Source: an uncultured Mucispirillum sp. (GTDB taxonomy: Bacteria > Chrysiogenota > Deferribacteres > Deferribacterales > Mucispirillaceae). From it: a stretch of 64,000 nucleotides of DNA. Position numbers and translations under genes: made by a program. Below are positions 59,094 through 59,769 of the stretch, piece by piece (position 1 is the first letter of the stretch; each line of letters opens with the position of its first letter). The notes under the pieces were generated by a model. That model worked only from the letters and a program-made list of their open reading frames with translations. It did no database searches and had not been told where the DNA came from. Where the stretch lies: the NCBI GenBank assembly GCA_944324465.1, contig CALUWI010000011.1, positions 1 to 64,000 on the forward strand, in the 5' to 3' direction.

Positions 59094-59594
59094 TTATTTA
59101 TCTGACTTTTCAGTTTCCTGCTTTATTACTATTTTTTTATTTCTATGGTCTAATATTATATTATTTGTTTTATATCCTCTTTCTATTGCAGTTTTGCAGT
59201 ATTCATAGGCTTTTTTATCATTTTTTTTCACACCTGCCCCGTCATAATACATAAGACCGATTATAAAATATGCAGGCACAAACCCAACATCTTTTGAACG
59301 CTCAAAATAATCATAAGCCATTCTGTAATCTTTTTCTACACCTATGCCGTAAAGATACATATAACCTAAGTCATATAAAGCATGAGAATGGTTTTTATCT
59401 GCAGCGATTTCAAGCCAGTATTTTGCTTTTTCATAATCCTGCTCTACCCCTTCTCCATTAAGATATCTTGCACCTATTCTAAATGCAGCTCCGCTATTGC
59501 CAATATTTGCAAGTTTTAAATCATTTTCTAAACTTTGGTTAGCATAAACGATTACAGGGATAAAAATAAATAGTAGTAAAAATTTCCTTAACAT
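59094..59594 (-). CDS. Exported Sel1-repeat protein
   Basis: 166 residues. A signal peptide (residues 1-18, cleavage after VYA) leads a series of three Sel1-type helical repeats: AAFRIGARYLNGEGVEQDYEKA near residue 35 (quoted in part: ARYLNGEGVEQDYEKA), ALYDLGYMYLYGIGVEKDYRMA near 71 and AYFIIGLMYYDGAGVKKNDKKA near 107. Such repeats bind other proteins; in pathogens and commensals Sel1 proteins often act in the periplasm in host interaction or envelope control. Partner unknown. Confidence 0.85.
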   Translation of the reverse strand: MLRKFLLLFIFIPVIVYANQSLENDLKLANIGNSGAAFRIGARYLNGEGVEQDYEKAKYWLEIAADKNHSHALYDLGYMYLYGIGVEKDYRMAYDYFERSKDVGFVPAYFIIGLMYYDGAGVKKNDKKAYEYCKTAIERGYKTNNIILDHRNKKIVIKQETEKSDK

Positions 59595-59608: not shown

Positions 59609-59624
59609 TGGCATTTCATTTGCT
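59609..59624 (+). promoter_or_regulatory. Candidate sigma-54 promoter
   Basis: TGGCAT-TTCAT-TTGCT matches the sigma-54 consensus TGGCAC-N5-TTGCW at every core position except one pyrimidine exchange, with GG at 59610-59611 and GC at 59622-59623, exactly 12 bp apart. Transcription would start near 59635, just before the GGAGG site and ATG of the 38-codon gene at 59653. It diverges from the Sel1 gene. Confidence 0.6.
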
Positions 59625-59652
59625 ATATAAAAATTATATTTTGGAGGATATT

Positions 59653-59769
59653 ATGAAAATAAATACTTTAGCATTTGCATCAATATTTTTACTGCTTGCA
59701 GCACTTACAAACACAACAATCATAGAACATTTAAGTTATTTAATACAAGAATTAACGAAAATGTGGTAG
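59653..59769 (+). CDS. 38-residue putative membrane microprotein
   Basis: A short gene with a strong GGAGG site (59643-59647) spaced six bases from the ATG. It encodes 38 residues: MKIN, a hydrophobic stretch TLAFASIFLLLAALT (residues 5-19), then a polar tail ending in KMW. The hydrophobic part could be a membrane segment or a signal peptide. It has its own sigma-54-like promoter. No homologue is recognised. A random short ORF with such a well-placed ribosome-binding site and promoter is unlikely but not excluded. Confidence 0.5.
   Translation: MKINTLAFASIFLLLAALTNTTIIEHLSYLIQELTKMW

Follow-up and report, generated by a model that had tools for sequence, protein, structure and literature searches.

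Does a -24/-12 promoter lying directly ahead of a frame of only 38 codons, too short for routine annotation, mark a genuine and regulated membrane peptide gene and, if so, what might such a peptide do? The question arises in a window of 64,000 nucleotides, the whole stretch of DNA analysed here, taken from contig 11 of a 2.42-Mb, 31-contig Mucispirillum genome (Deferribacterota), for which an initial annotation had proposed that a sigma-54-like promoter directly drives a small membrane peptide.

A sigma-54 promoter directly ahead of a 38-codon frame

Direct reading of the interval confirmed the exact promoter phase claimed in the initial annotation (GG-N10-GC, the spacing demanded by sigma-54), the single difference from TGGCACNNNNNTTGCW being located at the sixth base (TGGCAC in the consensus). 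The predicted transcription start at 59635 lies 18 nt ahead of the ATG at 59653, as had been estimated, and the GGAGG site announced between the two is indeed present, 5 nt before the start codon (Table 1). The frame itself extends over 59653-59766 (38 codons) and is closed by a TAG at 59767-59769. A longer frame of 53 amino acids, opening at TTG 59608, was discounted because it begins 5' of the predicted transcript; moreover, it is the ATG at 59653 that relatives conserve. On the upstream side, 14 bp separate the start codon of the divergent sel1 gene from the -24 element, and on the downstream side, a Pfam search with the convergent lipoprotein-like gene returned no match.

Table 1. Features of the peptide locus in the window
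Feature	Position	Strand	Basis
Sigma-54 promoter TGGCATTTCATTTGCT, TGGCAT-N5-TTGCT (-24/-12 elements)	59609..59624	+	Read directly; exact phase
Predicted +1, 12 nt past the C of the -12 element (C59623)	59635	+	Promoter geometry
Shine-Dalgarno GGAGG, 5 nt ahead of ATG	59643..59647	+	Read directly
Peptide gene MKINTLAFASIFLLLAALTNTTIIEHLSYLIQELTKMW, 38 aa, stop included	59653..59769	+	Conservation, selection
Codons 5-19, hydrophobic membrane-spanning core (predicted)	59665..59709	+	Kyte-Doolittle, sister-genus comparison
Codons 20-38, predicted amphipathic helix, invariant KMW at end	59710..59766	+	Hydrophobic moment, model, alignment
Divergent Sel1-repeat protein, 166 aa, apparent signal sequence	59094..59594	-	
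Convergent lipoprotein-like gene, family unassigned, 170 aa	59828..60340	-	

Sigma-54-like elements are common when matched loosely, the window containing 50 such matches at two mismatches with 35 expected. The exact pattern TGGCAYN5TTGCW, to which the -24/-12 elements of the peptide promoter and their flanks conform, was found 26 times genome-wide, compared to none for a reversed-pattern control. A combined pattern of promoter and spaced peptide codons matched once each in nine out of 46 genomes of the order (control, 0), namely eight Mucispirillum genomes and a single genome of a sister genus, none of the other genomes of the order giving a match. The association of promoter and peptide is not a chance observation, and we regard the promoter together with its translated frame as almost certainly real.

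The promoter and the peptide are conserved in Mucispirillum

The peptide frame is present, as a single copy and with no insertion or deletion over its 114 nt, in eight of the ten genomes of the genus, including those of M. schaedleri and Candidatus M. faecigallinarum, and in each of these eight it adjoins sel1, an arrangement shared with the sister genus. No specified promoter base varies among the same eight genomes, and all of these bases are also present in the sister genus; in the eight-genome alignment, oriented by gene, the surrounding spacer has diverged in length (56-72 nt) as well as in sequence. The two genomes devoid of the locus are only 86% and 75% complete and contain no orthologue of sel1 either, their best Sel1 matches having been rejected as orthologues, so that loss and missing sequence are indistinguishable there.

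Within the eight genomes, dN/dS values mostly range from 0.1 to 0.45 and 18 residues are invariant, the C-terminal KMW being among them, and the ribosome site reads GGAGG or AGAGGTGA in every relative; the frame is thus both under purifying selection at the protein level and preceded by a ribosome site, as for a translated small protein. The single hydrophobic stretch noted initially recurs as a core in all homologues (15-residue Kyte-Doolittle mean of 2.07-2.58), each of which carries one helix of the membrane-spanning type and is predicted to be membrane-located. In Mucispirillum, the sequence following this core is amphipathic (hydrophobic moment 0.46-0.55), and a structure model, constituting weak evidence for a chain of 38 residues, places residues 2-37 in one continuous helix (mean pLDDT 84, pTM 0.39).

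The peptide matched none of the Pfam and NCBIfam models, and its profile returned only insignificant matches in the PDB; an Rfam search of the peptide region yielded a sub-threshold chance match, and no copy was found on plasmids. A profile search of the other genera of the order did not return any convincing homologue, and those weak profile matches outside the two genera whose loci were examined had no sigma-54 site and were judged to be noise. The known range of the peptide is narrow, comprising two genera of Deferribacterota. These observations illustrate that reading promoter and frame jointly can recover genuine genes of fewer than 50 residues, which may be overlooked by annotation, in a gut phylum that has received little study.

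A shorter variant in a sister genus

The sister genus belongs to the same family and is represented by one genome (G011), which is visibly richer in G+C. Its sel1 orthologue shows 57% identity, the order sel1, peptide, lipoprotein is the same, and Band-7 and yicC genes are found upstream, as they are in the window, an insertion lying in between. Beside sel1 we identified the promoter TGGCATAAAAATTGCT, the ribosome site GCGAGGTG and a frame of 23 codons, MTGKTFVFFTIFAILAIITNSIS, directly after which the convergent lipoprotein homologue is found. The encoded 23-residue peptide is identical to a Mucispirillum peptide at up to 12 of its 23 positions, a value equalled by 6 of 200,000 composition shuffles; it keeps the start, the hydrophobic core and the TN(S/T) following it, codons 20-38 being nearly all absent.

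These shared elements, based on one sister-genus genome, suggest a conserved unit composed of the promoter, the ribosome site and the membrane core. The amphipathic tail would be dispensable or genus-specific, having been either added in Mucispirillum or lost in the sister genus, and this natural 23-residue variant may thus already point to the essential part of the peptide. As promoter and peptide are preserved among relatives, even in the sister genus, the micropeptide is very probably real and regulated.

The sigma-54 gene set and its candidate activators

The initial annotation would have given up its reading in the absence of rpoN or of a conserved promoter and frame in close relatives. 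Neither situation applies, since rpoN is present in the genome and promoter and frame are conserved in eight of ten Mucispirillum genomes as well as in the sister genus; to read the locus as encoding a small membrane protein under regulation therefore appears right. Eight domain matches to sigma-54 activators included three full ones, namely a NifA-like protein, a FlgR/FlbD-like protein encoded behind a histidine kinase and an NtrX-like protein also encoded behind a kinase, these names being approximate because the best-scoring models fall below their curated cut-offs. The sigma-54 contact motif of the NtrX-like protein reads GAYTGS instead of GAFTGA, which makes its activity with sigma-54 uncertain.

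Sigma-54 sites with a gene close downstream precede flgB, flgD, flgH, flgI, flgM, lpxC and a type III glutamine synthetase gene (FlgH and FlgM confirmed by Pfam, the other names being read from the sequences); gltB also belongs to the set, and further sites precede several small or unassigned genes. Two sites stand in tandem ahead of flgB, 53 bp apart (L037/L038). The genome of the sister genus contains 16 sigma-54 sites in an overlapping set, some of which are expected by chance because the control gives 5, and the two genera largely share this gene set, which includes flgB, flgH, flgI, flgM, lpxC, several small genes and the peptide gene. The envelope, nitrogen or flagellar response suggested at the outset can hence be narrowed: flagellar genes make up most of the set, in which lpxC and glutamine synthetase are also represented.

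An enhancer-binding site had likewise been anticipated upstream of the promoter. A dyad and k-mer search upstream of 18 sigma-54 promoters provided A/T-rich words only and no shared motif, and the strongest window of synonymous conservation within sel1 was no better than shuffled sequences (P 0.62), so that neither approach located such a site. The promoter of the type III glutamine synthetase gene (L043, site at 1501) carries upstream TTTTACAA/TTGTAAAA dyads, a plausible activator site that is absent from the peptide promoter.

Possible roles of the peptide

On balance, we favour a model in which the locus forms a sigma-54 unit with one gene, and in which the inner-membrane micropeptide encoded there probably assists or regulates a membrane complex. 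RpoN-polymerase would wait in the closed state at 59609-59624 until an enhancer-binding activator, most likely the FlgR- or the NtrX-like one, opens the promoter, and the short leader and strong ribosome site would then give rise to the 38-residue peptide. The latter would be inserted into the inner membrane as one helix, with the positive N terminus on the inside and the amphipathic tail lying along the far membrane face, the membrane helix presumably being the essential part. We infer that the peptide most likely serves as an accessory to, or a regulator of, a larger membrane complex produced under the same flagellar/envelope programme. Its gene provides a short and testable member of the sigma-54 regulon in a mucus-dwelling gut bacterium.

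Small single-helix regulators or subunits of the inner membrane are known, as exemplified by CydX, KdpF, AcrZ, MgtR and MgtS. The peptide resembles this class in its size (approximately 30-50 residues), its one membrane helix and the fact that mainly the helix is conserved, and differs from it in its sigma-54 promoter, its failure to match any tested family and its restriction to two genera of Deferribacterota. PspD and PspG, small membrane proteins of the PspF/sigma-54 phage-shock system, are likewise under sigma-54 control; however, the peptide has neither psp-type neighbours nor a Pfam or NCBIfam match, and none of the three activators had PspF as its best-scoring model. By analogy, the peptide may work like other small regulated membrane proteins.

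Two sharper versions of this favoured model, which are not exclusive alternatives to it, differ in the programme that the peptide would serve. Most of the sigma-54 sites with a nameable gene precede flagellar genes (flgB, flgD, flgH, flgI, flgM), the peptide promoter is of the same -24/-12 type as those of flgB, flgH, flgI and flgM, and the genome encodes a FlgS/FlgR-like pair, a system governing the sigma-54 flagellar class genes in Campylobacter (PMC11187230). The peptide might accordingly be a FlgR-class flagellar part or a regulator of flagellar assembly or of the motor in the inner membrane; we hold this as a tentative possibility, since it is encoded as a stand-alone micropeptide outside any flagellar cluster, lacks a convincing homologue in other genera of the order, shares its sigma-54 set with the non-flagellar lpxC, glutamine synthetase and gltB genes, and has no enhancer in common with the other promoters searched. 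Somewhat more doubtful still is the idea that the peptide participates with lpxC in an envelope response of the NtrX type, in which it would tune an envelope enzyme or a protease. The sigma-54 promoter of lpxC in both genera, the NtrX-like activator behind its kinase, the exported appearance of both neighbours of the peptide gene and the effect of NtrYX on the envelope in Rhodobacter (PMC7240162) are consistent with such a role, whereas the GAYTGS motif, the lack of a shared site in the dyad and k-mer search and the finding that NtrX of Rhodobacter lacks a binding site ahead of lpxC (PMC7240162) argue against it. The most specific form that we would venture, and a speculative one, is a micropeptide from a previously unrecognised family in which nothing but a membrane helix of about 20 residues is essential. 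A sigma-54 promoter of its own would tie this micropeptide to a combined flagellar and lipid A programme shared by Mucispirillum and the sister genus, and it would regulate an inner-membrane enzyme or protease belonging to that programme.

Other explanations would assign the locus to a different class altogether. Type I toxins are small, hydrophobic and formed by a single helix, as is the peptide, and a membrane-damaging activity of this kind might be envisaged; it is nevertheless improbable because inheritance is single-copy, syntenic and under purifying selection across species, with a fixed chromosomal place, a sigma-54 promoter of its own and no plasmid copies, and a simple consensus scan of the minus strand opposite the frame, a weak test, detected no sigma-70-like site. 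It is still less probable that the hydrophobic part serves as a signal sequence for a secreted product consisting of the tail: the positive N terminus followed by a hydrophobic stretch does resemble a signal sequence, but no good signal-peptidase site was seen by eye and the sister form ends directly past the core, leaving no product. The least probable reading takes the transcript as a regulatory RNA with an incidental frame. It would fit the short single-gene sigma-54 transcript, and a sigma-54-promoted RNA is predicted elsewhere in the genome (see below), yet codon-wise purifying selection, 114 nt free of indels in eight genomes, the maintained ribosome site and the retention of the peptide core by a genus whose base composition differs greatly all speak for the protein.

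A sigma-54-promoted small RNA candidate

The small RNA candidate maps to 148575-148675 on the minus strand of contig 1 (L039/G000), with its sigma-54 site at 148660-148675 on the same strand. The predicted 78-nt RNA consists of three hairpins and a terminator and displays GGA motifs in or by the hairpin loops, one of which, ACAGGAUGU, resembles the CsrA-binding consensus. A covariance model built from two sequences matched 29 of the 46 genomes of the order; after discounting G016 and G023, which match by terminator hairpins only, and considering G032 as weak, the RNA is present in about 26 of the 46 Deferribacterales genomes and shows compensatory pairs (homologues L148-L174). In members from the Mucispirillum family, TGGCAYN5TTGCT precedes the match by 23-25 nt, more distant members having a weaker -24/-12-like element, and no Rfam family matched the site.

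A csrA gene, which could encode a possible partner of this RNA, adjoins fliW downstream of flagellar hook-associated genes (L178 2077-2797, G000 contig 9; read from the sequences), and the RNA may have a CsrA-sequestering role. The FlgL-like hook-filament junction protein encoded nearby (L178 2819-7417) is unusually large, with 1532 residues.
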